Positions 3,786-53,219 of a stretch of DNA of 64,000 nucleotides are shown piece after piece. Position numbers and translations under genes: made by a program. A model generated the notes under the pieces. The model searched no databases, was not told the DNA's origin, and was given only the letters and a program-made list of their open reading frames with translations. This stretch comes from Kibdelosporangium persicum (GTDB taxonomy: Bacteria; Actinomycetota; Actinomycetes; Mycobacteriales; Pseudonocardiaceae), in assembly GCF_013280595.1 (NCBI RefSeq), contig NZ_JAAATY010000005.1, forward strand, positions 310,001 through 374,000, read 5' to 3'. How positions within the stretch are numbered: the stretch's first letter is position 1; the number at the start of each line of letters is the position of its first letter.

Positions 3786-3833
3786 CCTCGTGAGTGTTTA
3801 ACCGTGTTCTAACACCGATAAACACTCACGAGG
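3786..3833. repeat. Palindromic repeat, copy 1
   Basis: 48-bp near-perfect palindrome opening CCTCGTGAGTGTTTA and closing with its complement; here the matching arms extend two bases further out at each end (17 bp in all). The loop contains a second inverted repeat (GTGTT CT AACAC). It lies between two convergent genes, so it can serve as a bidirectional terminator. Five more copies lie at 9026, 15499, 24735, 47585 and 53172. There is no U-tract. Confidence 0.9.
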
Positions 3834-3845
3834 GGTGAGCTGGGA

Positions 3846-5699
3846 TTATTCGACGGGGGCCGCGAACTGCGCGGAGTACAGCCGGTGGTACGCGCCTGCA
3901 CGGTCGAGCAGTTCCTCGTGCGTGCCCTGCTCGACGATGCGGCCGGATTCCATCACCAGGATCACGTCCGCGTCACGGATCGTGGACAGCCGGTGGGCGA
4001 TCACGAAACTCGTCCGCGACGACCGCAACGCCGCCATCGCGTGCTGCACCAACGACTCCGTGCGGGTGTCGACCGAGCTCGTCGCCTCGTCCAGGATCAG
4101 CAGCGACGGGCTCGCCAGGAACGCCCTGGCAATGGTCAGCAACTGCTTCTCACCGGCCGAGACGTTCGTGCCCTCCTCGTCGATGACGGTGTCGTACCCG
4201 TCCGGCAGGGTGCGTACGAAGCGGTCGACGTACGTGGCACGGGCGGCCGCGATGATCTCCTCCTCGGTCGCGCCCGGCTTGCCGTACGCGATGTTGTCGC
4301 GGATGGTTCCCCCGAACAGCCACGTGTCCTGCAGCACCATGCCCGTCTGGGAACGCAGGTCCTCCCGTCGCAGTGCGGTGATGTCCACGCCGTCGAGCGT
4401 GATCCGGCCGGCGTCCAGCTCGTAGAACCGCATGATCAGGTTGACCAGCGTCGTCTTGCCCGCGCCGGTGGGCCCCACGATGGCGACGGTCTGACCGGGT
4501 TCGGCCACCAGCGACAGGTTCTCGATCAGCGGCTGGTCCTCCTTGTACGAGAACGACACGTTCTCGAACTCGACCCGTCCGCGCCGCCGCGCGGGCAGCG
4601 ACGCGTCCGCCGGGTCGGGCTTCTGCTCCTCGGCGTCCAGCAGTTCGAACACCCGCTCCGCCGACGCCACACCGGACTGCAGCAGGTTCGCCATCGACGC
4701 CACCTGAGTCAGCGGCTGCGTGAACTGCCGTGAGTACTGGATGAACGCGGTGACCTCGCCGAGCGTCATCGTGCCTGACGTGATCCGCACGCCACCGACC
4801 ACCGCGATGGCCACGTAGCTCAGGTTCGACAGGAACATCATCGACGGCATGATCAGGCCGGACACGAACTGGGCGCCGGACGCCGCCTGGTACAGGTCCT
4901 CGTTACGGCGCCGGAACTCCTCTTCGGACTCCCGCTGCCTGCCGAACGCCTTCACCAACTGGTGCCCGGTGAACGACTCCTCGATGTGCGCGTTGAGCGC
5001 GCCGGTGTGCTTCCACTGCGCGATGAACAGCTTCTGCGCCCGCTTGCCGACCGTTCTGGTCACGAACACCGACGCCGGGATCACGAGCAACACGATCAAC
5101 GCGAGCAACGGCGAGATCGTGAACATCATGACGATCACGCCGAGGACGGTCAGCACCGACGTCAGCAGCTGGCTGATCGTCTGCGCCAGCGTGGTCGAGA
5201 TGTTGTCGATGTCGTTGGTGACACGGGAGAGCAGCTCACCGCGCGGCTGGCTGTCGAAGTACCGCAACGGAAGCCGGTGCAGCTTCGCCTCGACGTCCTC
5301 GCGTAGCCGGTAGACCACGCGCTGCACGACGTTGTTCAGCAGGATGCCCTGTGCCCAGCTGAACAGCGATGCCGAGAGGTACAGCCCGAGCACCCACCAG
5401 AGCACTGTGGCCAGTGCGCTGAAGTCGATGCCGGGGGTACGGCCGATTACGCCGTCGAAGATGATGTCGGTGGCGTCACCGAGGACCTTCGGCCCCGCGA
5501 CGTTGAACCCGACGGCGACCACGCAGAGTCCGAGCACCAGGGCGAGGCTGAGGCGTTCCGGCCGCATGCGGCCGATGAGCCGTTTCGCGGACGTGCCGAA
5601 GTCGTTGGCCTTGCTGACCGGTGCCTGCATGGCCGCGAAGCGTCCGCCGGGTCCGCCCGCGGCGGGCTGGGGACGGCGGGTCGTGGTGGGAGTGCTCAT
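3846..5699 (-). CDS. ABC exporter subunit with consensus ATPase site (heterodimer partner B)
   Basis: 617 residues: a six-helix exporter domain (about 40-340) and an ATPase domain (about 370-610). Walker A is GPTGAGKTT, Walker B SLLILDEATSSVD with the catalytic Glu, and the H-loop IAHRLST. The signature is degenerate, NVSAGEKQ instead of LSGGQ. In heterodimeric exporters this pattern means that this subunit supplies Walker A/B of the active site and the weak signature of the inactive one. The ATG at 5699 overlaps the stop of the upstream partner by ATGA. The pair resembles Rv1272c/Rv1273c and is probably controlled by the divergent TetR protein. The substrate is unknown. Confidence 0.93.
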   Translation of the reverse strand: MSTPTTTRRPQPAAGGPGGRFAAMQAPVSKANDFGTSAKRLIGRMRPERLSLALVLGLCVVAVGFNVAGPKVLGDATDIIFDGVIGRTPGIDFSALATVLWWVLGLYLSASLFSWAQGILLNNVVQRVVYRLREDVEAKLHRLPLRYFDSQPRGELLSRVTNDIDNISTTLAQTISQLLTSVLTVLGVIVMMFTISPLLALIVLLVIPASVFVTRTVGKRAQKLFIAQWKHTGALNAHIEESFTGHQLVKAFGRQRESEEEFRRRNEDLYQAASGAQFVSGLIMPSMMFLSNLSYVAIAVVGGVRITSGTMTLGEVTAFIQYSRQFTQPLTQVASMANLLQSGVASAERVFELLDAEEQKPDPADASLPARRRGRVEFENVSFSYKEDQPLIENLSLVAEPGQTVAIVGPTGAGKTTLVNLIMRFYELDAGRITLDGVDITALRREDLRSQTGMVLQDTWLFGGTIRDNIAYGKPGATEEEIIAAARATYVDRFVRTLPDGYDTVIDEEGTNVSAGEKQLLTIARAFLASPSLLILDEATSSVDTRTESLVQHAMAALRSSRTSFVIAHRLSTIRDADVILVMESGRIVEQGTHEELLDRAGAYHRLYSAQFAAPVE

Positions 5700-7438
5700 G
5701 CTGCCTGCTCCGGGGTGAGCTGGGACTCGACGATCTCGACATAGGTGGGGCACGTGCCCATCAGCTCGCGATGGGTTCCGGTGCCGACCACTTCGCCGTT
5801 CTCCAGGACGATGATCTGGTCCGCGTCGAGCACAGTGGACACACGTTGGGCGACCACGATCACCGCCGCGTGCTCGGTCCGTGGCCGCAGCGCGGCACGC
5901 AACGCGGCGTCCGTCGCGAGGTCCAGCGCGGAGAACGCGTCGTCGAACAAGTAGATCTCCGGTTCGCGCACCAGGGCTCGCGCGATCGACAACCGTTGCC
6001 GCTGACCACCGGACACGTTGGTGCCGCCCTGCGCGATGGTCGCGTCGAGACCGCCCATCTCCTCGACGAAGTCCCGTGCCTGCGCGATCTCCAGCGCCTG
6101 CCACAGTTGCTCGTCCGTCGCGGCCGGATTCCCGTACAGCAGGTTGGATCGCACGGTGCCGGTGAACAGATACGCCTGCTGTGGCACCAATCCGATCCGG
6201 CTGCGCAGCACCTCGGGGTCCACCGTACGGACATCCGTGCCGTTGACGCGGACCTCCCCCGCGGTCACGTCGATGAACCTGGGGATCAGGTTCATCAGGG
6301 TGGTCTTGCCCGCGCCGGTACTGCCGATGATCGCGGTGGTCTTGCCTGCCTCCGCGCGCAAGGAGATGTCCCGTAGCACCGGATCGACCGCGCCCGGATA
6401 CCGGAACTCCACGTTCTGGAACGTGACCTCGGCGCGTCCGGGAAGCTCGGCGACGGGCGAGTCCGGCGGCCGCACGGACGGCTCGGTGTCCAGCACCTCC
6501 AAGATCCGCTCGGCGCAGACGGCGGCACGCGGGATCATCATCGAGATGAACGTGGCCATCATGACCGACATCAGGATCTGCACCAGGTAGGTCAGGAACG
6601 CGGTGAGCGCGCCGACCTGCATCTCACTGGCACCGACGCGGTGCGCGCCGAACCACAGCACCGCGACGCTGGAGACGTTGAGGATCAGCATCACGGTCGG
6701 GAAGATCATCGCCTGCAGCCGTCCGACCCGCAGCGCGGTGTCGGTGAGCCGCTGGTTCGTGTCGCCGAACCGGTCGGTCTCCGCCTTTTCGCGGACGAAC
6801 GCGCGGACCACGCGGATACCGGTCAGCTGTTCCCGCAGCACCCGGTTGACCTGGTCGATGCGTTCCTGCATCAGCCGGAACTGCGGGACCATGCGCGAGA
6901 CGATCAGGCCGATCGAGATGGCCAGCGCGGGCACGCAGACCAGCAGCAGCCAGGACAGCCCGACGTCCTCCTGCAACGCCATGACCACGCCCGCCACGCA
7001 CATGATCGGCGCGGCGACGAACATCGTGGCCATCATGACCACCAGCAACTGCACCTGCTGCACGTCGTTGGTGGTGCGCGTGATCAGCGAGGGAGCGCCG
7101 AACGTGGCGACCTCGCGCGCGGAGAACTCGCCCGCGCGGTGGAAGATCCCAGCCCGCACGTCGCGCCCGAACGCCATGGCCGTGCGTGCGCCGTACAGGA
7201 CCGCCGCGACGGAACAGGCGATCTGCAGCAGCGACACGGCGAGCATCCAGACGCCGGTGGTGATGATGTACTCGTTGTCTCCACGCGCGACACCGTTGTC
7301 GATGATGTCGGCGTTGAGGCTGGGCAGATAGAGCGATGCGATCGTGCCGACGAGTTGCAGCACGAGCACGATGGTCAGCTCTCTGCGGTACGGCCGCAGG
7401 TAGGTGACCAGCAAGCGGTTCAGCACCAGTTCCCCCAT
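5696..7438 (-). CDS. ABC exporter subunit with degenerate Walker B (heterodimer partner A)
   Basis: 580 residues: transmembrane exporter domain (about 15-310) and ATPase domain (about 335-570). Walker A is GSTGAGKTT and the signature NVSGGQRQR is canonical. Walker B reads IYLFDDAFSALD, with Asp where the catalytic Glu normally sits, and the switch His is Gln (VAQRVST). These defects match the degenerate signature of the downstream partner, so the two proteins form one dead and one live ATP site, as in TM287/288 and BmrCD. It is the first gene of the operon and starts 77 bases from the divergent TetR gene. Confidence 0.93.
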   Translation of the reverse strand: MGELVLNRLLVTYLRPYRRELTIVLVLQLVGTIASLYLPSLNADIIDNGVARGDNEYIITTGVWMLAVSLLQIACSVAAVLYGARTAMAFGRDVRAGIFHRAGEFSAREVATFGAPSLITRTTNDVQQVQLLVVMMATMFVAAPIMCVAGVVMALQEDVGLSWLLLVCVPALAISIGLIVSRMVPQFRLMQERIDQVNRVLREQLTGIRVVRAFVREKAETDRFGDTNQRLTDTALRVGRLQAMIFPTVMLILNVSSVAVLWFGAHRVGASEMQVGALTAFLTYLVQILMSVMMATFISMMIPRAAVCAERILEVLDTEPSVRPPDSPVAELPGRAEVTFQNVEFRYPGAVDPVLRDISLRAEAGKTTAIIGSTGAGKTTLMNLIPRFIDVTAGEVRVNGTDVRTVDPEVLRSRIGLVPQQAYLFTGTVRSNLLYGNPAATDEQLWQALEIAQARDFVEEMGGLDATIAQGGTNVSGGQRQRLSIARALVREPEIYLFDDAFSALDLATDAALRAALRPRTEHAAVIVVAQRVSTVLDADQIIVLENGEVVGTGTHRELMGTCPTYVEIVESQLTPEQAA

Positions 7439-7441
7439 GCA

Positions 7442-7506
7442 AGAAACGACTCGTGTCTAATAATGCGCAAGGTAGACCACTGACGTAAGAAACGCAACGT
7501 ATCTTA
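7442..7506. promoter_or_regulatory. Paired palindromic operators between the ABC exporter and TetR genes
   Basis: Two related imperfect palindromes fill the 77-bp divergent gap. The better one (7486-7506) has arms TAAGAAACG and CGTATCTTA around CAA (8 of 9 pairs match). The other (7442-7458) has arms AGAAACG and CGTGTCT around ACT (6 of 7 pairs). The shared shape AGAAACG-N3-CGTRTCT suggests two sites for one dimeric repressor, most simply the TetR protein encoded at 7516. Confidence 0.65.
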
Positions 7507-7515
7507 GGAGCTCGG

Positions 7516-8118
7516 GTGACGGACACCAGGACGAGGCGCCGCGGCACCGAGCTCGAGCATGCGATTCTGGACGCCGCGTGGGCCGAACTGAGTGAGGTCG
7601 GCTACCCGTCTCTAACCATAGAGGCAGTGGCAAAACGGGCAGGGACAAGCAAACCCGTCATCTACCGGCGATGGCCGAGCCGAGCCGCGCTGGTCATCGC
7701 CGCATGGGCCCGCCGTCAGCCGATCCACGAGGCAGCACCCGACCAGGGTTCGCTGAGAGCGGATCTGCTGTGGCTGTTCACCCGGATCGCCACCCGGATG
7801 GACGCGATGATGAGCCAGACGATCGCGGGCGTGATGGCCGAGGCGTTCAAACACCCCGAGGTCCAGGACCTGCTGCGGGACCGCCTCGACTCCGCTCCCC
7901 TGGCCAGGACGCTGGGGACCATCGTGGAGAACGCCGTGGCCCGCGGCGAACTGCGCCCGGCCGCCCTGCCGCGTCGCGTGCTGCGGCTGCCGCTCGACCT
8001 GCTGCGCTCGGAAGCGATCCTGTGCGGAACCCCGCTGTCGGAGGAGACGCTGGCCGCTCTGGTGGACGACGTGTACATCCCGCTGCTGAAGGGCCTGGCA
8101 GCAGACCACGGTCACTGA
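7516..8118 (+). CDS. TetR/AcrR family transcriptional regulator
   Basis: 200 residues from a GTG at 7516; AGGAG lies 7-8 bases upstream. The N-terminal helix-turn-helix spans about residues 12-60 (AILDAAWAELSEVGYPSLTI ... AKRAGTSKPVIYRRWPS). The C-terminal helical ligand domain resembles the TetR_C group common in actinobacteria. It is divergent from the heterodimeric ABC exporter and shares a gap with two related palindromes. It is therefore probably a ligand-sensing repressor of the exporter and of itself; the ligand cannot be read from the sequence. Confidence 0.9.
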   Translation: MTDTRTRRRGTELEHAILDAAWAELSEVGYPSLTIEAVAKRAGTSKPVIYRRWPSRAALVIAAWARRQPIHEAAPDQGSLRADLLWLFTRIATRMDAMMSQTIAGVMAEAFKHPEVQDLLRDRLDSAPLARTLGTIVENAVARGELRPAALPRRVLRLPLDLLRSEAILCGTPLSEETLAALVDDVYIPLLKGLAADHGH

Positions 8119-8185
8119 GCGAGCCACGGCAGGATGGATTCCCAGGCGGACCCGCGCCCCCCAGATGTACGGCTACGCGGGTGGA

Positions 8186-8632
8186 TCAGGAAGGATTCGG
8201 CGCGTCCGCCACACGGAAGACGGGATGCGCGGACGCCTCCGCGGCGAAGGCGCTGGCCGGGTCGCGCGGCTTCGCGTCGAAGTAGGGCCTCGTCACAGGT
8301 TCCTTACGGACGTACGCCTGGAGCACCGGCGCGCTTTCCTCGGCGCCGCACTCGAACACGCTGACTGTCCGCGTCTTCCGGCCGTGCCGTAGCCGAACCT
8401 CGCCGGCCGCGCGTGCGTTGTGCACCCATGCCACGTTTCCGTAAGGCGAGACAAGCCATTCCTTGCCGTCGAACCTCAGCAGACGGATCGGTGTCGTGCG
8501 CGCGAGGCCGGTACGCCTCCCCACAGTCGTGAGCAGGACATAGCTACGCGGTGCGACGCCGACGCGCAACGCTGCTCCGATGACGGCGTTGCCGACCTTC
8601 CTGACCACGCCGTACTTGTACTTCCTGGCCAC
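8186..8632 (-). CDS. Deazaflavin (F420)-dependent nitroreductase-family protein
   Basis: 148 residues. It matches the Ddn/Rv3547-like split-barrel family: VGVAPRSYVLLTTVGRRTG, TTPIRLLRFDGKEWLVSPYG and WVHNARAAGEVRLRHGRKT are characteristic (the last region is the usual WxxNLRAxG). These enzymes use reduced F420 to reduce quinones or similar acceptors. The start lies nine bases after the stop of the 109-residue protein gene upstream, so the two are probably cotranscribed. The exact substrate is unknown. Confidence 0.88.
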   Translation of the reverse strand: MARKYKYGVVRKVGNAVIGAALRVGVAPRSYVLLTTVGRRTGLARTTPIRLLRFDGKEWLVSPYGNVAWVHNARAAGEVRLRHGRKTRTVSVFECGAEESAPVLQAYVRKEPVTRPYFDAKPRDPASAFAAEASAHPVFRVADAPNPS

Positions 8633-8641
8633 CAGGCCACC

Positions 8642-8971
8642 CTATCCGCGGGCGCGGCCTGGCGTCTGTTCTGCCACACCGTGGCGCAGCGGGGTTCTGT
8701 CGTCGGGCGAGTGCGCGGGCGAGACCGGCGACGTCCTGGGGGTATCCGTGGCGCCCGGGGCGTTGCGCTGGTCGCCGCCTGCGGGTTGTGCTCCGTCGGC
8801 AAGTTCATCCAGACGGGTGATCAGCAGCTGCTCGACCTGGGCCCGGTTGGCGTGCTCACGTTCGTGCTCAAGGACCTGCCGGAGTTCGTCCCCGGACAGC
8901 GATCGGATGCGATGCCGCAGGTCACCCGTGGAAAGCTGGTCGTAGTCGTTGATCGGGAAGTCATCTGCCAT
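8642..8971 (-). CDS. Small actinobacterial protein, DUF8129-like
   Basis: 109 residues. The N-terminal MADDFPINDYDQLSTGDLRH followed by SLSGDELRQVLEHEREHA and VEQLLITRLDELADGAQP is a widespread actinobacterial small domain of predicted helices with unknown function. The last 45 residues (from QPAGGDQRNAPG) are low-complexity and probably disordered. It lies downstream of dapA, separated by palindrome copy 2, and just upstream of the F420-type reductase gene. Confidence 0.75.
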   Translation of the reverse strand: MADDFPINDYDQLSTGDLRHRIRSLSGDELRQVLEHEREHANRAQVEQLLITRLDELADGAQPAGGDQRNAPGATDTPRTSPVSPAHSPDDRTPLRHGVAEQTPGRARG

Positions 8972-9025
8972 GCCGATCGGCTACCCGGATGGACCCGGGC
9001 CTAACTCCCCGTCCGCCCTGGTGAA

Positions 9026-9073
9026 CCTCGTGAGCGTTTATCCGTGTTCTAACCCTGATAAACGCTCACGAGG
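9026..9073. repeat. Palindromic repeat, copy 2, overlapping the end of dapA
   Basis: 48-bp palindrome of the same family, with a paired change: GAGTGTTTA/TAAACACTC becomes GAGCGTTTA/TAAACGCTC, so pairing is kept although the sequence differs. The right arm, read on the minus strand, encodes LVSVYQG and the TAG stop of dapA falls in the loop (9049-9051). It separates dapA from the next minus-strand gene. Confidence 0.9.
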
Positions 9074-9951
9074 GGGGCCAGCGCGGCTGTGAGGCGCTGG
9101 AGGTGGGGCGGTGGCGACTCGACCAACGGGAGGCGCACGGTCGCGTGCGGGATGATCCCGAGTTCGGCCAAGGCGGCCTTCGCCATGATGGCGCCCTGGG
9201 ACGTGTGCATGATGGCGTCCATCAACCGGAGCAGCGACTCCTGGATCGCCTTCGCCGAGCCGAGATCGCTGTCGCGGACGGCCCGGATGAGCTCGGCGTT
9301 GCGGTCGGCGACGACATTGCCGACGACGCTGACCACACCGGTGGCGCCGCACGCGAGGTAGGCCAGGTTCAGTTCGTCGATACCGCAGTAGTAGGCCAGC
9401 GATGTGCGGGCCATCAGGGACATCGCTTCGAACAGGTTGCCCTTGGCGTCCTTGACCGCGCGGATCCGCGGATGCCCGGCGAGTTCGGTCAGCGTGGCGG
9501 CTTCCATGGCCATGCCTGTACGGGCGGGCACGTCGTAGAGCATCACCGGGAGCTCGGTGGCGTCCGCCACTGCCACGCAATGGGCGATCAAGCCTGCCTG
9601 AGTCGGCTTGGAGTAGTACGGGCAGACGAGCAGCAGCGCATCCGCTCCGGCCGCTTCGGCTTCGCGTGCCCGGCGAACGCTGGCGGCGGTGTCGTAGGTG
9701 CCGACACCGACGGTCACCCGGGCCTGGCTCTTCGCCTGAGCCGCCACGGCACGGACCGACTGGACAGTCTCGTCGTCCGTCAGGGTGGGCGACTCACCAG
9801 TCGTCCCGGCCACCACGATCCCGTCGCAGCCTGTGGCCAGGAGGTGGTCCATGAGGTTCGCCAGGCCAGGCTCGCTGATCGTGCCGTCGGGATTCATCGG
9901 GGTCACCATGGCGACGAGGTTGGCGCCGAAGAGCTGCTGTGCGTCGGTCAT
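9049..9951 (-). CDS. dapA: 4-hydroxy-tetrahydrodipicolinate synthase (DapA family)
   Basis: 300 residues. DapA condenses pyruvate with aspartate semialdehyde in lysine and diaminopimelate synthesis. Visible signatures are GTTGESPTLTDDE, LLLVCPYYSKPTQ, MLYDVPARTG (catalytic Tyr in this region) and the Schiff-base Lys in IRAVKDAKGN. The ATG at 9951 fits the usual family N-terminus; the ribosome site is weak. The last seven residues (LVSVYQG) come from an arm of palindrome copy 2, so the natural C-terminus was replaced or extended. It is divergent from a LysR regulator. A DapA-like aldolase acting on another substrate cannot be excluded. Confidence 0.9.
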   Translation of the reverse strand: MTDAQQLFGANLVAMVTPMNPDGTISEPGLANLMDHLLATGCDGIVVAGTTGESPTLTDDETVQSVRAVAAQAKSQARVTVGVGTYDTAASVRRAREAEAAGADALLLVCPYYSKPTQAGLIAHCVAVADATELPVMLYDVPARTGMAMEAATLTELAGHPRIRAVKDAKGNLFEAMSLMARTSLAYYCGIDELNLAYLACGATGVVSVVGNVVADRNAELIRAVRDSDLGSAKAIQESLLRLMDAIMHTSQGAIMAKAALAELGIIPHATVRLPLVESPPPHLQRLTAALAPLVSVYQG

Positions 9952-10023
9952 GGTCCGATCGTGGCGCGTCCGATAGGTGTGGTCCAGCGATGCTTTCTTG
10001 CCGGTATTGCGTAACCTGGCTTT

Positions 10024-10914: not shown

Positions 10915-10915
10915 C

Positions 10916-11437
10916 TCACCGGGCGAAATCCCAGCGAGTGGCGCCGTGCGGTTCGGCGCTGGCCACACCGAAAGCGGTGTGCAACGTCAGGCGGTACAGG
11001 TGCCACGGCGGCGGGCCCGCGCTGGGCGCGCTGTACGGGGCCGTGAAAGCGTCGCCCTCCACCGAGACCGGCCAGCCGCCCGTGCGGTAGACGGCCGCCA
11101 CACGCTCCAGAGTGGACGAGTCGGTGACCCGGTGCGCCTCGCCTTCCAGGACCAGGTCGAGGCCACGCAAGCGCACCGACACACTGCACGCCGGATTGGC
11201 CGCCAGATTGCGCGACCTGCGTGTGCCCGGTCCGCCCTTGAAGTACAGCGCACCGTCCACCCACACCGCACCGACGCCTGCGGTGTGCGGCCGCCCGTCA
11301 GGCCGTACGGTCGCGACGAAGAACGTCAGGTCCGCGGTGGGCGTATCGGCCGTGAGGATGTCAAGCGCACGGCTCCACGGCAGTTCCGCGGTCCCGTACC
11401 GGTCGAGGTTACGTGTCGATGTTGGGGTGTCAGTCAT
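10916..11437 (-). CDS. Pyridoxamine 5'-phosphate oxidase-family flavoprotein
   Basis: 173 residues from the ATG at 11437. The split-barrel pattern FFVATVRPDGRPHTAGVGAV, ALYFKGGPGTRRSRNLAAN and CSVSVRLRGLDLVLEGEAHR is typical of the PNPOx-like superfamily, whose members bind FMN, F420 or heme. True PNPOx substrate residues are not evident, so a general FMN- or F420-dependent reductase is more likely. The reading continues upstream without a stop, but that part has no family signal. Confidence 0.82.
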   Translation of the reverse strand: MTDTPTSTRNLDRYGTAELPWSRALDILTADTPTADLTFFVATVRPDGRPHTAGVGAVWVDGALYFKGGPGTRRSRNLAANPACSVSVRLRGLDLVLEGEAHRVTDSSTLERVAAVYRTGGWPVSVEGDAFTAPYSAPSAGPPPWHLYRLTLHTAFGVASAEPHGATRWDFAR

Positions 11438-11481
11438 GCCTACGCGTCGAACGAGCCGGGCCCACATCGACACCGGCCGAA

Positions 11482-12318: not shown

Positions 12319-12419
12319 GCCTCCTCTGCCGAGCGGACGGACTGGACGGCGGATACCCCTGTCAGCCGTCGATCACGCCGCCCGGTGAGCTGTTCGGCGT
12401 AACTTTGGCCCAAATCCAA

Positions 12420-12461: not shown

Positions 12462-12504
12462 CTGAGCATTAGCGGAGATCCCTGCTCTCCTCAAAGGAGC
12501 AAAG

Positions 12505-15489: not shown

Positions 15490-15498
15490 CACCCCCTC

Positions 15499-15544
15499 TC
15501 GTGAGTGTTTATCAGGGTTAGAACCCTGATAAACACTCACGAGG
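15499..15544. repeat. Palindromic repeat, copy 3 (most perfect copy)
   Basis: Two perfectly complementary 22-bp arms (15499-15520 and 15523-15544) are separated only by AG. It lies between convergent genes, 9 bases after one stop and 1 base before the other. The perfect stem would form a very stable hairpin in RNA of either strand. Confidence 0.92.
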
Positions 15545-15545
15545 C

Positions 15546-24555: not shown

Positions 24556-24563
24556 CGCCCGAT

Positions 24564-24734: not shown

Positions 24735-24782
24735 CCTCGTGAGTGTTTATCAGGGTTAGAACCCCGATAAACACTCACGAGG
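24735..24782. repeat. Palindromic repeat, copy 4
   Basis: Arms 24735-24757 and 24760-24782 are complementary except at one position (CAGGG facing CCCCG) around an AG loop. It lies between the GH30 gene and the convergent MOSC gene. Confidence 0.9.
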
Positions 24783-34906: not shown

Positions 34907-34929
34907 CACGACCGCGACCGGCGGCAGTC

Positions 34930-35003
34930 GGCACCCCGTGTCGACCTTTGCGGCACCCCGTGTCGACCTTTGCGGCACCCCGTGTCGACCTTTGCGGCAC
35001 CCC
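34930..35003. repeat. 22-bp tandem repeat array A
   Basis: Three identical 22-bp units at 34930-34951, 34952-34973 and 34974-34995, each containing GTGTCGACC, are followed by a partial unit (GGCACCCC) that runs into GAAATTCCCC. A related array in opposite orientation lies at 40684-40766. There are no spacers, so it is not CRISPR. The nearby gene on the right is a pseudogene. Confidence 0.9.
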
Positions 35004-35099
35004 GAAATTCCCCTGGCGATGCCGCGACGGTCAGGCGGACTCCCAGTGCGTTGGTCCGGGTCGGACCAGCACAGCGTTGTGCTGGCCCGACCCGGTGCT

Positions 35100-35784
35100 C
35101 TACTGCTGGCCGAAGGTCACCACCAACCGGCCGTCCGCCGCGAACGACCACCTCGGCGCACCGGGGTAGGACGAGCACCGGGACCCGTTCGTACCGGACC
35201 AGAACTGGTTCGAACTGTCCGAGTTGCCGATGATCCTGTCGTTCGAGCCGCTGCCGCTACGGCAGGAGACGTTGTTCCGGAACACCGAAGTGCCGCCGTC
35301 GAACGAGTAGTCGCGCTCGGCGTTGTCGATGCTGACGTTGTCCGACACCGTCGATGTTCGGCAGGCCGCCGGAAGTGGTCGGGTTGAGCCGGATCGTGTT
35401 ACTGCCCGCGTTCACGGTGACGGGCAACGACTTGGTGACCCAGGTGTTCCACGCACCCGTGCTCTCGAACGACACCGCCTGCACGGTCGTACCGTTGACG
35501 ATCAGGTCGGCGGGGCGGCTACTGCTCGTGCCGTTGGCGAACCGCACCTCCAGCGTCGCCGTACCTGCCGCCGAGGCGGTCGCGGTGAACTGGGCGTAGG
35601 CGCCAGTCGCGTTGGTGCCGTTGCAGAAGCCGGAACCGGAGAAACCCGACCAGTTGCTGTCGATCGTGCCGGTGCAGGTCGCCGGGGACGCCTCGACCTC
35701 ATAACGTGTGGTCGCGGCGCTCGCCGACGCGGGGACCACCACGGCCAGGAGCACGGCACCAGAGACCAGAAGCGAGCATCTCAT
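35100..35784 (-). pseudogene. Broken CBM35 beta-helix (pectinase-type) gene
   Basis: The first part (from the ATG at 35784) encodes a signal peptide and a complete CBM35 module very like that of the next gene (shared NAGSNTIRLNPTTS and GLPNID). Right after GLPNID, near 35355, the frame is lost. The other frame then reads the end of a parallel beta-helix protein (DYSFDGGTSVFRNNV, CSSYPGAPRWSFAADGRLVV). The linker and most of the catalytic domain are missing, so an internal deletion with frameshift is likely. The gene starts 15 bases after the PL1 gene stop, so it was probably cotranscribed with it. Confidence 0.85.
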
Positions 35785-35799: not shown

Positions 35800-37179
35800 T
35801 CAGAGCTTGCCCGCGCCCGCGCCGGCAGTGACGGATGCCTTGACGGTGCTGACGTTGTCCGCGGTGTAGCTGTACGGGATGGGCGCCACGGTTCCGTTGA
35901 CCTCGCAGGGTCCGGAGTTGGTCAGCGAGTTGTCGCGTGCCACCAACCGCCCGGGATCAGATTCCGCGTACCCGCTCGCCGACCAGCACGCCTGCTGCAC
36001 GTTCTCGAAGACGTTGCCCTCCACGAGCAGTCCGGCGTCCATAAGAGACGCGATGGCGTACGAGTCCTCGTTGTTGTTCACATTGGAGTAGTAGTTGTTG
36101 AACACGTGGACCGTCTCACCGAAGCGCACGCGCGGGCTGCGCTCGAACGTGCGGTCGAACCAGTTGTGGTGGTAGGTGACCCGCAGATGACCGCGGTCCT
36201 CACCGCCGTTGCCGTCGGAGTGGCCGACCAGCGAGGTCTTCCAGTGATTGCGGACGATGTTCCAGGACACCGTGATGTAGTCGGCGGCGTGGGTGATGTC
36301 GATCATGCCGTCGTAGTGGTCGGGGTCGTTCTCGATCGTGCTGGACATCGTGTTGTGGTCGAGCCAGATGTGCGTGGCGTTCTCGATCTGGATCGCGTCC
36401 CTGCCGGGTACGCCGCGGATGTTCATGTTCTGGATGATCACGTTGGCGGGGCGCATGTCCTCGATGTTGAGGGTGGTCCCGGAGATCCCCGATCCGGCGC
36501 CGACACCGCGGATCGTCTTGTCGGCACTGATCTCGACGGTGCCTGAGCCGCTGAGCATCCCGTTGACCAGAATGGTCCTGGCACCCGAGGCCTGCGCCTG
36601 GGTCCGGAAATCGGCGAAACTGCTCACGGTGACCGTGGACCCGCTTGCGCCACCGGTGGTACCACCGGCCTGTGTGGCCCAGCCGAGGATCCCACCGGGC
36701 GGCGGCTCAGTGGAGCCACCGCTGTCGAAGTCGAGGTAGTCGATGTTGGGCAGGCCGCTGGACGTGGTCGGGTTCAGCCGGATCGTGTTGCTGCCCGCGT
36801 TCACCGGCACGCTCACCGTCTTGGTCGTCCACGTCGACCAAGCCCCGGTTGCCTCGAACGACGGCGTCTGCACTGAGGCGCCGTTCACGACCAGGTTGGC
36901 CGGTCGAGCCGCCGTGGAACCGTTCGCGAACCGCAGCGCCAGTGTTGCCGTGCCAGCCGTCGACGCGTTCACCGTGAACTGGACGTAGCCGCTCGTTCCG
37001 TTGGTACCGTTGCAGAAACCGGCGCCGGAGTAGCCGGGCCAGTCGGAGTCGATCGTGCCGATGCACGCCGCCGGGGCGGTTTCGGCCTCATAGCGGGTGA
37101 TCGCGGCGCCTGCCGAGGCAGGGACCACCAGCCCGGCCAGCAAGGCAACGCCTGCGACCAAAGGCATGCGTCTCATCAT
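35800..37179 (-). CDS. Secreted pectate lyase, family PL1, with N-terminal CBM35
   Basis: 459 residues. A signal peptide (about 1-25), CBM35 (about 27-150; RYEAETAPAACIGTIDSDWP), a short Pro/Gly linker and a PL1 beta-helix (about 165-435). Lyase hallmarks are ATHIWLDHNTMSS, DGMIDITHAADYITVSWN (calcium-binding region) and RSPRVRFGETVHVFNNYYSN with the catalytic Arg. PL1 enzymes cleave polygalacturonate by beta-elimination using calcium. A good ribosome site (GGGAGATGG) precedes the ATG at 37179. It is followed by the broken CBM35 gene and preceded by the PL3 gene. Confidence 0.93.
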   Translation of the reverse strand: MMRRMPLVAGVALLAGLVVPASAGAAITRYEAETAPAACIGTIDSDWPGYSGAGFCNGTNGTSGYVQFTVNASTAGTATLALRFANGSTAARPANLVVNGASVQTPSFEATGAWSTWTTKTVSVPVNAGSNTIRLNPTTSSGLPNIDYLDFDSGGSTEPPPGGILGWATQAGGTTGGASGSTVTVSSFADFRTQAQASGARTILVNGMLSGSGTVEISADKTIRGVGAGSGISGTTLNIEDMRPANVIIQNMNIRGVPGRDAIQIENATHIWLDHNTMSSTIENDPDHYDGMIDITHAADYITVSWNIVRNHWKTSLVGHSDGNGGEDRGHLRVTYHHNWFDRTFERSPRVRFGETVHVFNNYYSNVNNNEDSYAIASLMDAGLLVEGNVFENVQQACWSASGYAESDPGRLVARDNSLTNSGPCEVNGTVAPIPYSYTADNVSTVKASVTAGAGAGKL

Positions 37180-40613: not shown

Positions 40614-40683
40614 CCGACGCCAGGCGGCGCGGCCGATCTAGCGACCGGAACACCAGGAAAGCAGCCGCCCCCGCACGCCGCGA

Positions 40684-40766
40684 GGGGAATTTCGCGGTGC
40701 CGCAAAGGCGAACTCGACGTGCCGGAAAGGTCGACACGGGGTGCTGGAAAGGTCGACACGGCGGGA
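40684..40766. repeat. 22-bp tandem repeat array B (inverted relative to array A)
   Basis: Three diverged 22-bp units (starting at 40701, 40723 and 40745) carry AAAGGTCGACACGG or close variants, the reverse complement of the unit at 34930. The flank GGGGAATTTCGCGGTGC (40684-40700) is likewise the complement of the flank beside array A. The two arrays therefore face each other across 5.7 kb. The MCO pseudogene begins 69 bases to the right. Confidence 0.85.
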
Positions 40767-40834
40767 CGTCGCCGGGAGCGTGCAGCACGGTGCCGCGCAT
40801 GGGGGTCTCCTTTCGGGTATGCCTCCAGGAACCG

Positions 40835-44494: not shown

Positions 44495-44520
44495 CCACAA
44501 GACATCCTCTGGAGACAACC

Positions 44521-47553: not shown

Positions 47554-47584
47554 GAAGGAACCGTAACGCCTGTCCCCAGCCCCA

Positions 47585-47632
47585 CCTCGTGAGTGTTTAT
47601 CGGTGTTCTAACCCTGATAAACACTCACGAGG
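47585..47632. repeat. Palindromic repeat, copy 5, overlapping the end of a histidine kinase gene
   Basis: 48-bp palindrome of the same family; 15-bp outer arms pair perfectly. The right arm encodes, on the minus strand, the tail LVSVYQG of the kinase, and the TAG stop (47608-47610) is in the loop, exactly as at dapA. Confidence 0.9.
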
Positions 47633-49035
47633 GGGTCCTGTGGGGTGCGTGGCAGGCGGAGGACGAACCGCGCGCCTCCGCCGGGGGCGTTGCCCGCTGT
47701 GAGGTCGCCGCCGTGCAGACGGGCGTTCTCCCGGGCGATCGCCAATCCCAATCCGCTGCCGGGCGTTCGGGTACGAGCGGAATCGGCTTTGTAGAAACGG
47801 TCGAACACGTGCGCCAGGACGTGTTCGGGCAGACCAGGTCCGTGGTCGGTGACCTCGATCGACACCTGTTCACGTGACGCCGAGACGGACACGCGCACGG
47901 GCGGTTCGCCGTGCCGCAGCGCGTTGCCGACCAGGTTGGCGACGATGACGTCCAGGCGGCGCCGGTCCAGCCGCAGCTGGATGTCGTCCGGCGCCACGAG
48001 TTCGACCCGGTCCGCCCAGCTACGGGCACGCAGGCAGTCGCGCACGGCATTGGCCACGTGCACGTCCTCGATCCGCAGGTGGGCGGTGCCCGCGTCGAAA
48101 CGGGACACCTCCATCAAGTCCTCGACCAGCCGGACCAGCCGATGGGTCTCGGTGATCGCGAGTCGCGCGGACTCCCTGGCGTCCGGCTCCATCCGGTCGG
48201 CGGTGGTCGCCAGCACCTCGGCCACCGCCGTCAGCGTGCTCAGCGGCGTACGCAGCTCGTGCGACACGTCGGCGGCGAATCTCTTCGCGTCAGCCTGCAT
48301 CCGCTGCATCGCGGCCATCGACGCCTGTACCGACTCGGCCATCTCGTTGATGGTGACGGTCAGCTCGGCCAGTTCGTCGGCACCTCGGGGTGACGACCGC
48401 GCATCGAGGTCGCCTGCGGCCAACCGGCGCGCGGTGTCACGCAGTCTGCGCACCGGGCGCAGCACGCTGCCCGCGGCGACCAGCGCCAGCAACAATGCCA
48501 GCGGTAACGCCCACGCAGCGGTGACGGCCGCGGACCGGGTGAGGCCGTCGATCTGCTGCTCGACATCGGTGAGGTCGTGCATGGAGTACACCTCGATGCC
48601 GGACGGCGTCCGCACACCGTCCAGCGCGGTGATCATGATGGGCGTGCCGACCAGGAGCCAAGGCGTGCCGTTGACGGTGATCCGTTGCGTGACGAGCCGG
48701 TTCTGGGTGCGCACGGCGGTGCGCAGTTCGTCGGTGACCAGGTCGGTGCCTTCCGCGGAGCGCAGGTCCTGGAAGGTCACCACCGCGTTCGTCCCGACAG
48801 CCGCTCGTAGCCGGTCGAGCGTGCTTTGGATCGGCGGATACGTCAGCTCCGGGGTGATCGCCTGGATCTGGCCGGTGATGGTGCCGGTGATCCGTTGCTG
48901 GGTCGAGGTGACCAGTGCGGAGCTCGCCGATCCGGCGCTCGACCAGGCCGCCGCGGCGGCGCCGAGCACGGTCACCAGCACGAAGGCGACGAGCAGCCGG
49001 GCACGCAGTCCGCCCGGCCGGAACCGTCTGGTCAT
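47608..49035 (-). CDS. Sensor histidine kinase
   Basis: 475 residues. Two membrane helices (about 12-34 and 170-193) flank an extracellular sensor region. A HAMP domain (LRPVRRLRDTARRLAAGDLD), HisKA with RFAADVSHELRTPLSTLTAV (phospho-His) and a GHKL ATPase (VANLVGNALRHGEPPVRVSV, DHGPGLPEHVLAHVFDRFYK, GSGLGLAI) follow. The final LVSVYQG comes from palindrome copy 5 and is not a natural kinase end. Its ATG overlaps the stop of the response regulator by ATGA. The signal is unknown. Confidence 0.93.
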   Translation of the reverse strand: MTRRFRPGGLRARLLVAFVLVTVLGAAAAAWSSAGSASSALVTSTQQRITGTITGQIQAITPELTYPPIQSTLDRLRAAVGTNAVVTFQDLRSAEGTDLVTDELRTAVRTQNRLVTQRITVNGTPWLLVGTPIMITALDGVRTPSGIEVYSMHDLTDVEQQIDGLTRSAAVTAAWALPLALLLALVAAGSVLRPVRRLRDTARRLAAGDLDARSSPRGADELAELTVTINEMAESVQASMAAMQRMQADAKRFAADVSHELRTPLSTLTAVAEVLATTADRMEPDARESARLAITETHRLVRLVEDLMEVSRFDAGTAHLRIEDVHVANAVRDCLRARSWADRVELVAPDDIQLRLDRRRLDVIVANLVGNALRHGEPPVRVSVSASREQVSIEVTDHGPGLPEHVLAHVFDRFYKADSARTRTPGSGLGLAIARENARLHGGDLTAGNAPGGGARFVLRLPRTPQDPLVSVYQG

Positions 49036-49706
49036 ACCGGCCCGAACCGGTAGCCGAACCCGCGCACGGTCTGCACATACCGCGGCGCCGCCGCGTTGGC
49101 CTCGATCTTCGCCCGCAGCCGCTGCACGCAGTTGTCGACGAGCCGGGAATCACCGAGGTAGTCGTGCTCCCACACCTCCTCCAGCAACTGCTGGCGGCTG
49201 AACACGCGGCCGGGCGCCCGGGACAGGGTCAGCAGCAGCCGCAACTCGGTCGGCGTCAGCGTCACCGGCTTGCCGTGTAACGACACCGTCAGCGCGGTGG
49301 TGTCGACGCTCAGGTCGCCATGCACCCGGACGCCGTCCGGAACACCGGCGCTGCGGCGCAGCACCGCGCGAATCCGGGCGTCGAGCACGGTGGGCTGCGC
49401 GGGCTTGACGACGTAGTCGTCCGCGCCCGCCGCCAGCCCTTCCACCACGTCGAAGTCGTCCCCCCGGGCGGTGAGCATGATCACGGGTATCTCACCGGCC
49501 GCCCGGATCCGGCGGCACACCTCGATTCCGTCGACGCCCGGCAGCATCAGGTCGAGCACCACCAGGTCCGGCGGGCCCGCGTGGAACTCACGCAGCCCGT
49601 CCTCGCCGGTCTCCGCCGTGCGGACGTCGTGGCCGTGTCTGCCCAGCGCGATCTGCAGCCCGCGCCGGACCAGGGGATCGTCCTCGATGAGCAGAATCGC
49701 CGCCAC
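49032..49706 (-). CDS. OmpR-family response regulator
   Basis: 224 residues from a GTG at 49706 (the frame is open upstream, but the family begins at AAILLIEDDPLVRRG). The receiver domain has acidic IEDD, phospho-Asp in LVVLDLMLPGVDG and Lys in DDYVVKPAQP. The winged helix covers about 125-222 (LTPTELRLLLTLSRAPGRVF, RYVQTVRGFGYRFGPV). It is coupled to the kinase gene by an ATGA overlap. Confidence 0.93.
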   Translation of the reverse strand: MAAILLIEDDPLVRRGLQIALGRHGHDVRTAETGEDGLREFHAGPPDLVVLDLMLPGVDGIEVCRRIRAAGEIPVIMLTARGDDFDVVEGLAAGADDYVVKPAQPTVLDARIRAVLRRSAGVPDGVRVHGDLSVDTTALTVSLHGKPVTLTPTELRLLLTLSRAPGRVFSRQQLLEEVWEHDYLGDSRLVDNCVQRLRAKIEANAAAPRYVQTVRGFGYRFGPV

Positions 49707-49829
49707 GCGTCCAGTATGGACACCACTGACCCGCGCCTGCGGAATGTGTGCCCGCTTGCGACACAACCGGGACACGGCCACGGCAGCGCCGGGACACGGC
49801 CACCGTGACCGGCGCGGGCCGCCGACCGG

Positions 49830-50687
49830 CTACTGGTTCTCGATCTGGGCGCGAACCCGCTCGACGGCCTGGACGGCGGCGTCCGGCTCGTCGACGTAGA
49901 TGTAGTGGCCGCTCTTGGTGGCAGTGGTCAGCTTGGCGCGGCTGGACAGGGCGAGCCACTTGCGCTGCCCCTCGTTCCACGCCTGCTCCAGGCCCGGCCC
50001 GTACTCGGGAAGGGCCGCGAGGTACGGCTGGCCGTGCTCGACCACCTCGACGGGGATGTCACCCGCGGAACGGACCTCGCCGTCGGTGATCGCGAGCTTC
50101 TCGGGGTTCTCCCCGCGGAAGACCGCGACGCTCTGCGCACGGACGTCGGCCGCCGGGCCGGTCGCGGACTCGGGGATCAGCCTGGTCGTGTCCGCGCCCG
50201 TCGTCGCCGGGGTGGCGTCCAGCAGGACCAGCCCCTTGACCTTGTCGCCGTGGTCAGGGGCGTACCGGGCGGCGATCCACCCGCCCAGTGAGTGCCCGGC
50301 CAGCACGACGGGCGCGTTCCCGGCGACCTGGCTGAGCACCCCGGTCAGGATCTTGCCGGTGCTCTCCAGGGTCTGCGGCCCGTCCGGCTGGTCGCTCGCG
50401 CCTTCGCCGAGCCGGTCGTAGGAACAGACCCGGCCCTTGCCGCTCAGGGTGTTCTGGAAGCCGGCCAGCTTGTCCAGGCCGTCGCCCAGACCGGCCAGCA
50501 GCACCACGACCGGCCCGCCGTCCTCCGAACTGCCGGAGCAGGACACGTTCACCGACCGGCCTTCGACAGTGATCTTCGTGGTGCCGGTGACCAGGCCTTC
50601 GGCGGCCTCGTCGCAACCAGCCAGCGCGCCGACGAGCATGGTGCAGCACAGCGCGGTCACAGCGGACGCCCGGACGTTGGGGAACAA
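49830..50687 (-). CDS. Alpha/beta hydrolase lipoprotein
   Basis: 285 residues from a TTG at 50687, favoured because GGAGAGATC lies just before it and it gives a proper lipoprotein signal (TMLVGALAGC, Cys about 24). An ATG at 50762 has no ribosome site. The hydrolase fold shows VVVLLAGLGDGLDKLAGFQN (oxyanion region), the nucleophile Ser in VLAGHSLGGWIAARY, and a His in KSGHYIYVDEP. It probably acts as an esterase or similar on the outer membrane face. The substrate is unknown. Confidence 0.87.
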   Translation of the reverse strand: MFPNVRASAVTALCCTMLVGALAGCDEAAEGLVTGTTKITVEGRSVNVSCSGSSEDGGPVVVLLAGLGDGLDKLAGFQNTLSGKGRVCSYDRLGEGASDQPDGPQTLESTGKILTGVLSQVAGNAPVVLAGHSLGGWIAARYAPDHGDKVKGLVLLDATPATTGADTTRLIPESATGPAADVRAQSVAVFRGENPEKLAITDGEVRSAGDIPVEVVEHGQPYLAALPEYGPGLEQAWNEGQRKWLALSSRAKLTTATKSGHYIYVDEPDAAVQAVERVRAQIENQ

Positions 50688-50821
50688 GATCTCTCCAAGG
50701 GAAAAGTCAACCAGTGTCGGAAGGACTCGAACGCTAGGGATTCGACGGTCCCGAGTCGTCACCGCACAGTGGACACCTGCACGTAGCTCGCTCGGGGGAC
50801 GCGACCGCTACGCTCGCCCCC

Positions 50822-51958
50822 GTGATCGACCTCCAGCGAGTCGCGGACTTGTGGCGACGGTCCGACGTCACGGTCCGGGATCTCCCCCTCGCGCTGTTAC
50901 TCGCGGTCCTCTCGCTGATTCCGGCGTTCGACGGCCACGGAACGCAGGTCGGCGACGTGCCACGGCACTCCATGGACACGTTGGCGGTCGCGGTGGTCGC
51001 CCTCGAATCGCTGCCGCTGACCGTGCGCCGGAAGTGGCCGGCGCTCTGCCTTGCCCTGGTGGCGATCGGCTTCGCCCTCGACCAGCTCCGCGGCTACCAC
51101 ACCGTGGCGGGCACCGCGCTGCCGATCGCGTTGCTGAGCGCGGGAGCTCACCTGGAACGTCACCGGCGCACCACCATCGTCGTGGGCACCGCCGCGTACG
51201 TCCCGCTGGCCATCGCCCTCGACCATCAGGGCGGAGCCGAGGACGTGACCGGGTTCGTCACGTTCTACTTCGGGATGGCCATCGCCTGGGGCATCGGCGG
51301 GTGGCTCCGGCTTTTCCGGGCGAACGAGGCGGAACGCCGCCGCCACGTCGCCGAGACAACCCGGGCCGCGGAACGCACCCGCGTCGCTCGCGAGCTGCAC
51401 GATGTCGTGACCCACCACGTGACGGTGATGGTGGTTCAGGCCGAGGCGGCACGCTACCTGACCACGTCCCCCGAACGTCTCGACGAGACCCTCACGGCCA
51501 TCACCGACACCGGCCGCCGGGCCATCACGGATCTGCGGCACATGCTCGATGTGCTCAACCCCGACCACGGCACTGATCACGGGCTGCACGCCCTCGTCGA
51601 GCAGATCCGGCAGGCCGGGCAGCCGGTGGAGTTCATCGAGGAAGGCAGGCCGGTGAACGCGGCGGACAGCGCCGGGGCGGCCGCCTACCGGGTCGTGCAG
51701 GAGGCGCTGACGAACGCTCTCAAGTACGCCCACGGCAGCCGCACGACCGTCCACGTGCACCACGGTGACAAGGAGATCACCGTCGAGGTGGGCACCGACG
51801 GACCCGGTTCGCCGGCCACGTCCCCCGGCGGAAGCGGGCGTGGCCTCGCCGGTCTGCGCGAACGGGTCGACGTGCTCGGTGGCGAGTTCACGTCAGGCTG
51901 GCGTGACGGAGGCGGTTTTGTTGTGCGGGCCCGTATCCCGGCCGGGAGTTCGTCGTGA
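50822..51958 (+). CDS. NarL-type sensor histidine kinase
   Basis: 378 residues from a GTG at 50822. Four to five membrane helices (about 22-160) lead into a HisKA_3 domain with ERTRVARELHDVVTHHVTVM (phospho-His in ELHDVV), then a GHKL ATPase with VVQEALTNALKYAHGSRTTV and GSGRGLAGLRERVDVLGGEF. The structure is that of DesK/LiaS-type kinases that sense membrane or cell-envelope state. The stop overlaps the response regulator's GTG. Confidence 0.93.
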   Translation: MIDLQRVADLWRRSDVTVRDLPLALLLAVLSLIPAFDGHGTQVGDVPRHSMDTLAVAVVALESLPLTVRRKWPALCLALVAIGFALDQLRGYHTVAGTALPIALLSAGAHLERHRRTTIVVGTAAYVPLAIALDHQGGAEDVTGFVTFYFGMAIAWGIGGWLRLFRANEAERRRHVAETTRAAERTRVARELHDVVTHHVTVMVVQAEAARYLTTSPERLDETLTAITDTGRRAITDLRHMLDVLNPDHGTDHGLHALVEQIRQAGQPVEFIEEGRPVNAADSAGAAAYRVVQEALTNALKYAHGSRTTVHVHHGDKEITVEVGTDGPGSPATSPGGSGRGLAGLRERVDVLGGEFTSGWRDGGGFVVRARIPAGSSS

Positions 51959-52614
51959 CGGCGCCGGTCCGTGTCCTCGTCTGCGACGACCAGGAGCTGA
52001 TCCGCACCGGGATCGCGACCATCGTCGACGCGCAGCCCGACCTGGAGGTGGTGGGCGAGTGCGGGGACGGGTGCACCGCGGTCGACCTCGCCGTCCGGCT
52101 GCGACCGGACGTGGTGGTGATGGACGTCCGGATGCCGGTCCTCGACGGCATCGAGGCGACCCGCCGGCTGGCCGGTGCCGGCGTCACCCAGCCCACCAAG
52201 ATCCTCGTGGTGACCACGTTCAACCTGGACGAGTACGTGTACGAGGCGTTGCGCGCCGGAGCCAGCGGCTTCCTGCTCAAGGACGCACCGCCGGCACAGT
52301 TGCTGCACGGCATCCGGACCGTCGCCACCGGTGCGGCGCTGCTGGCGCCCGAGGTGACCCGTCAGCTCGTCGGCCGTTACGCCGCGCGGATCCGCCCGGT
52401 CAAAGGCACTCCGGACGACGTGCCGCTGACGCCACGCGAACTGGAGGTGCTGCGCCTCATCGCGGACGGTCTCTCCAACAGCGAGATCGCCGCGACTCTG
52501 GTGATCAGTCACGAGACCGTCAAGACGTACGTGTCACGCATCCTCACCAAGTTGCAGCTCCGCGACCGCGTACAGGCGGTCGTCTACGCCTATCGCCAGG
52601 GCCTCGTGGCCTGA
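51955..52614 (+). CDS. NarL/LuxR-family response regulator
   Basis: 219 residues from a GTG at 51955 overlapping the kinase stop (GTGA). Receiver: VLVCDDQELIRTG, phospho-Asp in DVVVMDVRMPVLDG, Lys in GFLLKDAPPAQLL. LuxR helix-turn-helix at about 155-210: LTPRELEVLRLIADGLSNSE, ISHETVKTYVSRILTKLQLR. It is partner to the preceding kinase. No efflux or target genes directly follow on the same strand. Confidence 0.94.
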   Translation: MTAPVRVLVCDDQELIRTGIATIVDAQPDLEVVGECGDGCTAVDLAVRLRPDVVVMDVRMPVLDGIEATRRLAGAGVTQPTKILVVTTFNLDEYVYEALRAGASGFLLKDAPPAQLLHGIRTVATGAALLAPEVTRQLVGRYAARIRPVKGTPDDVPLTPRELEVLRLIADGLSNSEIAATLVISHETVKTYVSRILTKLQLRDRVQAVVYAYRQGLVA

Positions 52615-52687
52615 GTCCGACCGTCACTGTCCTCAGTGGACATGGGTTGACGGCACCGCGACTGTGACCGCTGGAGCGCGATCCAGG

Positions 52688-53116
52688 TCAAGCCAGCAGC
52701 AGCACTCCGCCCGTGAGCAACGCGGCGACCTTGACGAGCTCCAGCGCGACATACGCGACATGGGCGTGCGATCGTGGCAACTCCTCGCCCGCGAGCACGC
52801 GATCCGACCGCTTGCTCAACCGGGGCCGGACAAGCGCCACCTGGATCACGAGCATCGCGATCGCCAGGCACAGCGGTATCAGCACCCGCACAGGCGGTGC
52901 CGCGATGACGAGCGCGGCCGCGATCACCAACGCCAGGACACCTTCGACGACGTTGAGCGCACGGAAGACGATCCGGCCGATCCCCAGGCCGATCGGCACC
53001 GTCACCCCCGGCGCCCGGAACTTCAGAGGCGCTTCGAGGAACGAGATCGCCAGCACCATGCCGAGCCACCCGAACGTCACGGCCACCGCCACGCCCACCA
53101 GCCGACCACCTTTCAC
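52688..53116 (-). CDS. Four-helix membrane protein (DUF4149-like)
   Basis: 142 residues with four hydrophobic helices (VGVAVAVTFGWLGMVLAIS, ALNVVEGVLALVIAAALVIA, VRVLIPLCLAIAMLVIQVAL, VALELVKVAALLTGGVLLLA). The segment SFLEAPLKFRAPGVTVPIGL recalls small DUF4149/TMEM205-type proteins, but this is a weak match. It converges with the response regulator gene. Confidence 0.75.
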   Translation of the reverse strand: MKGGRLVGVAVAVTFGWLGMVLAISFLEAPLKFRAPGVTVPIGLGIGRIVFRALNVVEGVLALVIAAALVIAAPPVRVLIPLCLAIAMLVIQVALVRPRLSKRSDRVLAGEELPRSHAHVAYVALELVKVAALLTGGVLLLA

Positions 53117-53171
53117 CCTCGATCACGCCGAATCCTACCGAGCGTCGCGCGCTTCGCCCTGGCCTGAAAAA

Positions 53172-53219
53172 CCTCGTGAGTGTTTATCAGGGTTCTAACG
53201 CTGATAAACACTCACGAGG
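53172..53219. repeat. Palindromic repeat, copy 6
   Basis: 48-bp palindrome with perfectly paired outer arms and a loop reading GGGTTCTAACGC. It lies between the start of the membrane protein gene and the end of the macrodomain gene, both on the minus strand, 50 bases after the macrodomain stop. Confidence 0.9.

Follow-up and report, generated by a model that had tools for sequence, protein, structure and literature searches.

Palindromes with constant ends and centre and variable complementary arms at gene ends of Kibdelosporangium persicum and related Pseudonocardiaceae

Why should nearly the same palindrome recur at gene ends throughout a stretch of bacterial DNA, and is it a transcription terminator, a mobile sequence or both? 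The question arises from six palindromes in a 64,000-nucleotide stretch of the Kibdelosporangium persicum genome (the window), which an initial annotation had described as mobile or REP-like repeats doubling as bidirectional terminators. All six are present, with 46-bp cores that begin within 1 bp of the starts it had reported. They are listed below with the strand that reads AG in the loop.

3787..3832, minus strand: copy 1, between a RibD_C-domain gene (plus strand, stop 13 nt away) and an ABC transporter gene (minus strand, stop 13 nt away)
9027..9072, minus strand: copy 2, whose two arms carry the paired change; a DHDPS-family gene (9049.., minus strand) has its stop codon within the core
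15498..15543, plus strand: copy 3, with perfect 22-bp arms, between a PA14/3-keto-disaccharide hydrolase gene (plus strand, stop 8 nt away) and a CsbD-like gene (minus strand, stop 2 nt away)
24736..24781, plus strand: copy 4, between a glycosyl hydrolase/ricin-lectin gene (plus strand, stop 180 nt away) and a MOSC-domain gene (minus strand, stop 27 nt away)
47586..47631, minus strand: copy 5, between tandem genes; the core holds the stop codon of a histidine kinase gene (47608-49035, minus strand), and a LuxR-type regulator gene (minus strand) is next
53173..53218, minus strand: copy 6; the best facing stop is that of an ORF at 53269.. (minus strand), 50 nt away, and the assignment of the left-hand gene is uncertain

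Copy 3 indeed combines perfect 22-bp arms with a loop of 2 bases, and the paired substitution reported for copy 2 is a T-to-C change in one arm matched by an A-to-G change in the other. At all six copies a facing ORF stop lies at most 50 nt away or inside the element, as expected from the proposed location downstream of genes, the gene assignment at copy 6 being weak because our ORF caller gave two different classes in two runs. A 15-base arm, allowed up to three mismatches, matches the window 12 times (mean 0.37 and maximum 3 in 100 shuffles). Rfam 15 has no match in the window, and at copy 3 there are only weak matches, far under the gathering score. At two copies a gene takes its final codons and its stop from the element: the histidine kinase gene (47586-47631) and the DHDPS-family gene (9027-9072). 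Since it forms the gene end at copies 5 and 2, the C termini of both proteins are changed or set by the element.

The window contains other repeats. An inverted pair at 34929-35027 and 40679-40768 (90 nt, 84% complementary) has one arm made of three 22-bp tandem units. Two direct repeats (168 and 228 nt, 77% identical, 1389 nt apart) lie at 35350-35758 and 36739-37147 and are probably a duplicated gene.

Distribution and anatomy of the palindrome

We searched the whole genome from which the window derives (G000; 10.35 Mb in 89 contigs) with the 46-bp motif, allowing up to three mismatches. There are 384 forward and 383 reverse matches and none to a reversed control pattern; the genome-wide search suggested at the outset therefore reveals a large dispersed family. 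We sampled 938 kb of G000, about half of it picked around known copies, and found 110 palindromes whose arms measure 16 bp or more; 79 are this element, and the next cluster has 2 members.

Exact matches to a 40-bp core are found in 94 of 390 genomes of the window's family (Pseudonocardiaceae), in 11 of its 46 genera, with up to 481 copies per genome and a very uneven spread within genera. In the Amycolatopsis group, for example, G288 carries 481 exact copies, whereas G240 and G263 have none. Named records with the pattern, among the matches listed, belong to Amycolatopsis, Kibdelosporangium, Prauserella, Qaidamihabitans and Actinophytocola. Across 396 genomes sampled over the phylum, among which G000 is the sole member of its family, a 42-bp pattern occurs in G000 alone. 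A covariance model (R1) detects candidates in 200 of the 390 family genomes at E <= 0.001; these E-values are rough, at most 15 candidates were scored per genome, and hits outside the carriers of the exact pattern are not counted as members. The viral contigs, plasmids and phages searched with the pattern gave no match. Rhodococcus rhodnii NRRL B-16535 was dropped as a carrier from another family, 8 kb of it being 100% identical to G003. The latter belongs to the window's GTDB genus, and L048 and the other JOAA records titled Rhodococcus rhodnii NRRL B-16535 look mislabelled. Open-access literature searched by arm strings, topics and taxa holds nothing on this element among the matches listed, and the available parts of a stem-loop catalogue (PMC2267715) and of the RepRanger paper (PMC12306157) hold nothing on these genera.

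Copies from several genera have in common their ends, CTCGTGAGTG and CACTCACGAG, and their centre, GTT-NN-AAC. Ends and centre are constant partly by virtue of the search pattern; the two loop bases are left free by it, and 179 of 183 copies have AG there on one strand. The ends are joined to the centre by 9-bp arms, which differ among genomes and among copies, yet are complementary. For a chosen set of 34 copies, 96.5% of cells are paired and double changes occur at every one of the nine inner pairs; covariation scores 0.377, compared with 0.085 after shuffling (reached in 0 of 500 shuffles). Part of the G000 copies have a weaker outer extension, approximately CCCCAGCTCACCC on one side with its complement on the other.

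We find that arm pairing differs in strictness between genomes. For 183 copies from 22 genomes, a count that leaves out loci L120-L138 (no genome label), arm identity is 0.834, against 0.767 (maximum 0.792) for within-genome and 0.493 for across-genome shuffles of the arms. G001, a single-contig genome, has perfect inner arms in 74 of 100 copies (mean 9.9, maximum 19 in 1000 shuffles). These represent 13 arm types, and 11 of the remaining 26 copies, which are imperfect, combine two of those types as hybrids. Perfect inner arms occur in 4 of 72 sampled G000 copies, compared with 4.0 expected under arm reassortment; most copies there carry mismatches at one or two inner positions, the commonest combination being mismatched at two, and overall arm identity (0.821) is marginally above the maximum of 300 shuffles (0.818). 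The proposal that pairing is under selection or was kept by gene conversion has to be taken with caution: covariation of the arms is strong between genomes and within several of them, but in G000 perfect inner pairing is no commoner than reassortment would give.

Position relative to genes

Genes were called with our own codon-usage ORF caller, which miscalls some short genes, and copies less than 1500 nt (G000) or 700 nt (other species) from the end of a stretch were excluded. The 78 sampled G000 copies lie between 37 convergent, 32 tandem and 9 divergent gene pairs, one of the nine having a facing ORF on review. All 853 adjacent gene pairs in the same sequence divide into 163 convergent, 528 tandem and 162 divergent ones, and the convergent excess (37/78 versus 163/853) is significant (Fisher p 8e-8). 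Of 91 copies in other species, 47 are convergent, 41 tandem and 2 divergent, and 1 lies inside a called gene. The nearest facing stop is at most 20 nt away in 60 of 69 G000 copies (median 5), which upholds gene 3' ends as their location, and in 78 of 88 copies elsewhere. Among 106 facing stops 86 are within 20 nt, and in 22 of the 106 cases the stop codon is part of the element (19 TGA in CTCGTGA and 3 TAG of the core). In G001 no oriented copy is found over 2.23 Mb (G001:C1, 4.91-7.14 Mb of 11.76 Mb), roughly opposite base 1; with the origin position assumed, this is possibly a terminus-side desert. The last two twelfths of that record are denser, with 17 and 20 of 100 copies.

These placements bear on what might read the palindrome. 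Ends and centre that stay constant, at fixed spacing, across genera would suit a dimeric DNA-binding protein (a nucleoid or insulator protein) recognizing them in duplex DNA. We regard this as unlikely: a duplex binder needs no match between 9-bp arms that it does not read, yet the arms covary, and the copies are located at 3' ends and seldom lie between divergent genes (11 of 169 copies versus 294 of 1535 gene pairs). Hairpins at mRNA 3' ends with a nearly invariant AG loop could alternatively be RNA elements, read via the loop by a protein or RNase in 3'-end protection or processing. Such a reader is quite unlikely given that the RNA strand is not fixed: in tandem contexts the loop in the upstream gene's RNA is AG in 19 and CU in 13 G000 copies, and AG in 17, CU in 23 and GG in 1 copy elsewhere. 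Inner mismatches, read in the RNA sense, show no strand preference either (G-U 12 versus A-C 15 in other species, 10 versus 12 in G000). The lack of an RNA-strand preference in both loop and mismatches suggests that the uniformity of the element is imposed on DNA.

The location is that of an intrinsic terminator, a stable hairpin directly downstream of genes, with a mean fold energy of -27.7 kcal/mol in 32 tandem copies and the short stop distances given above (60/69 at most 20 nt). The same 32 copies have a mean of 2.4 T in the first 12 nt after the stem, and there is no true U-tract. T is mildly enriched after the stem, at 0.38-0.44 at +4 and +5 and 0.41 at +9 versus 0.16 in the genome. U-poor terminators are known from high-GC bacteria.

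Turnover at orthologous slots and evolution of the arms

Syntenic stretches from six genomes of the window's genus allowed us to compare 20 copies in 12 slots, 5 of them common to two or three species and 7 seen in one species. At all 12 slots at least one alignable relative lacks the element near the aligned end. Empty sites in relatives, which had been named as a check on mobility, are therefore present throughout this comparison. Orthologues of copy 3 have unrelated hairpins directly after the stop codon in G001, G002 and G004 (judged by eye), nothing clear in G003, and the first half of the element in G007. The orthologues of copy 1 show no element, and several have other hairpins (again by eye); two of the hairpins at these copy 1 and copy 3 orthologues fold at -34.0 and -30.8 kcal/mol. 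A slot followed in eight genomes holds the element in G000, G001 and G003, with different arms in each, an unrelated palindrome with 23-bp arms in G002, an ordinary hairpin in G006, and no element in G004, G005 and G007. Its flanks are 96% (left) and 93% (right) identical between G003 and G004. In Amycolatopsis, the slot that carries the element in G228 is occupied in G233 and G261 by two different palindromes unrelated to it, and at a second slot G233 has another palindrome.

Slots that are empty in relatives, or that hold an ordinary hairpin, an unrelated palindrome or other arms, indicate that copies turn over, and the presence of other hairpins in the same slot fits a terminator role. Together, the tight stop-codon distance, the convergent excess and the replacement by ordinary hairpins argue for bidirectional termination. 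At slot C (L170-L173, L298-L303; G007 2274 in the joined region), the G007 element adjoins one arm of the ordinary hairpin of G000 and G004, as if it had landed in or beside an existing terminator. Loci L250-L267, from three genomes of the Amycolatopsis group, contain several other dispersed long palindromes (2-5 copies each per 100-140 kb), some of which occupy a slot held by the element in a relative.

Could the copies simply be ordinary terminators of independent origin, made alike by selection alone and never copied? The ordinary hairpins in equivalent slots speak for this. However, a hairpin terminator needs no fixed ends and centre, yet hundreds of copies have them; the ordinary hairpins of relatives share none of the fixed parts, and arms differ from genome to genome at orthologous slots. 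We therefore consider independent origin highly improbable.

The arms themselves can be followed at shared slots. At one slot common to G000, G003 and G007 the flanks are shared right up to the element, as are an unusual outermost base, a difference between the left and right arm starts, and the loop strand, yet the arms are of GTCCG/GGCCG type in G003 and of ATCAG/ATCGG type in G000 and G007. In 4 of the 5 shared slots all species have the loop on the same strand. In the fifth its strand differs, and the G002 arms (GTTATCCGG) look nearer to those of G007 than to those of other G002 copies. At one slot the arms of G001 and G002 are nearly identical, a misfit with simple genome-typical arms. 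We read these alignments to mean that some copies may descend from a common ancestor, their arms having later been overwritten from copies in the same genome, in addition to independent gains. Arm evolution is largely concerted within a genome, and at orthologous slots the arms are mostly genome-typical.

On balance we lean towards the view, drawn from sequence comparison, that the copies are bidirectional hairpin terminators without a true U-tract, one family per genome, which would be homogenised and spread by copying from site to site. RNA read through a slot would fold, and transcription would stop. Copies may swap sequence within a genome via ectopic gene conversion or template switching, for which the fixed ends and centre could act as homology handles. 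Replacement of one arm would first yield a hybrid, whose other arm would then be corrected to match by intra-hairpin copying; alternatively, the unit would be copied as a whole. Template switching is known to correct imperfect palindromes. Copying into the terminator region of another gene end would create a new copy. Arms that are free in sequence yet complementary, set between fixed parts, are to be expected if the hairpin depends on pairing and copying depends on the ends and centre. No copying enzyme was found.

More specific, and in our opinion doubtful, is a terminator cassette, in which a hairpin-acting enzyme would copy the 46-bp palindrome between gene ends and overwrite the arms of existing copies. 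Terminators are usually viewed as evolving gene by gene. Were the cassette real, stop signals would be replaced one by one with a single species 'dialect', dialects would drift in concert, and terminators would no longer evolve as independent sites but would make up a genomic compartment that is mobile and homogenised. Copying machinery of this kind, if it exists, would be a new route for the spread of regulatory hairpins. What the alignments make directly legible is how a very short non-coding element evolves in concert and how it splits into sequence-fixed and structure-only parts: hundreds of genes have a member of one sequence family in their terminator slot, and the family exchanges places with unrelated hairpins in sister species.

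Comparison with known repeat and terminator systems

REPs are palindromes of 20-50 nt, mostly intergenic and present in hundreds of copies, some with a conserved internal mismatch, according to the part of PMC8266576 available to us. The present family is likewise a high-copy, extragenic short palindrome (384 forward matches, in a gene-end context). It could thus be a non-autonomous REP-type palindrome moved by a Y1 (RAYT/IS200-type) transposase acting on single-stranded hairpins, with termination as a side effect. A dispersed hairpin, the gene-end location and the empty sites agree with this, and the loop strand polarity and standard inner mismatches in G000 recall the bulge of E. coli REP (PMC8266576, same part). 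Pfam Y1_Tnp, however, has no match in G000, so that the Y1 transposase envisaged elsewhere in the genome is absent; it is present in 5 of 54 tested genomes and lacking in 22 of the 24 that have at least 100 copies (present in 2). This excludes Y1 transposases as a general explanation. There is no one-sided, unpaired GTAG or CGTC-like tag, the flanks of 32 and 79 G000 copies being mirror-symmetric and C/G-rich, and no BIME-like or dimeric arrangement in the sampled G000 sequence, where copies are single and the closest pair is ~1.1 kb apart. Genes between close pairs look like ordinary operon genes (translations inspected by eye). Replication-strand bias is not seen in G001 (57 of 100 copies, p 0.19, origin assumed at base 1). 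The mobile, REP-like character first proposed thus stands as far as the dispersed family and the empty sites go; in the strict sense of a REP, with a Y1/RAYT gene in G000, an end tag and dimers, it does not, and we judge movement by a Y1 enzyme very unlikely.

Neisseria offers another model, in which DNA uptake sequences arranged as pairs also function as terminators; we give it almost no credence here. That such pairs can form terminators and number in the hundreds is established (PMC2397512, consulted in part), but uptake sequences are also found singly, whereas 52 of the 56 occurrences of the 10-mer CTCGTGAGTG in 464 kb fall within the palindromes. The 4 single occurrences outside palindromes compare with 0.9 expected, and the uptake-sequence reading was rejected.

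Taken together, the element is a dispersed gene-end palindrome with fixed feet, a fixed tip and free arms, without a Y1 enzyme, with visible turnover and largely concerted arms. Its closest known counterparts are REPs and the uptake-sequence terminators of Neisseria. It resembles the REPs that accompany a RAYT (TnpA-REP) in being a short, high-copy, mostly intergenic palindrome (PMC8266576, in part), and differs from them in having no Y1 in G000, no GTAG tag and no dimers, and in its free complementary arms between fixed parts. CGTC-tagged REPs are palindromic repeats that also have no dedicated transposase (PMC3733652, in part), but the present element, at ~46 bp, has no CGTC-type unpaired tag; in the main text of that paper, as far as available, actinobacteria, Streptomyces and Mycobacter have 0 occurrences each. 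Like the uptake-sequence terminators of Neisseria (PMC2397512, in part), it is a dispersed sequence arranged in inverted pairs that would act as a terminator; unlike them, it has no comparable single copies, and its arms are the variable part. Uptake sequences reportedly also come in species dialects (PMC3630211). With ordinary intrinsic terminators it shares a strong hairpin near stop codons and the same slots in relatives, and it differs from them in having no true U-tract and a sequence common to hundreds of genes.
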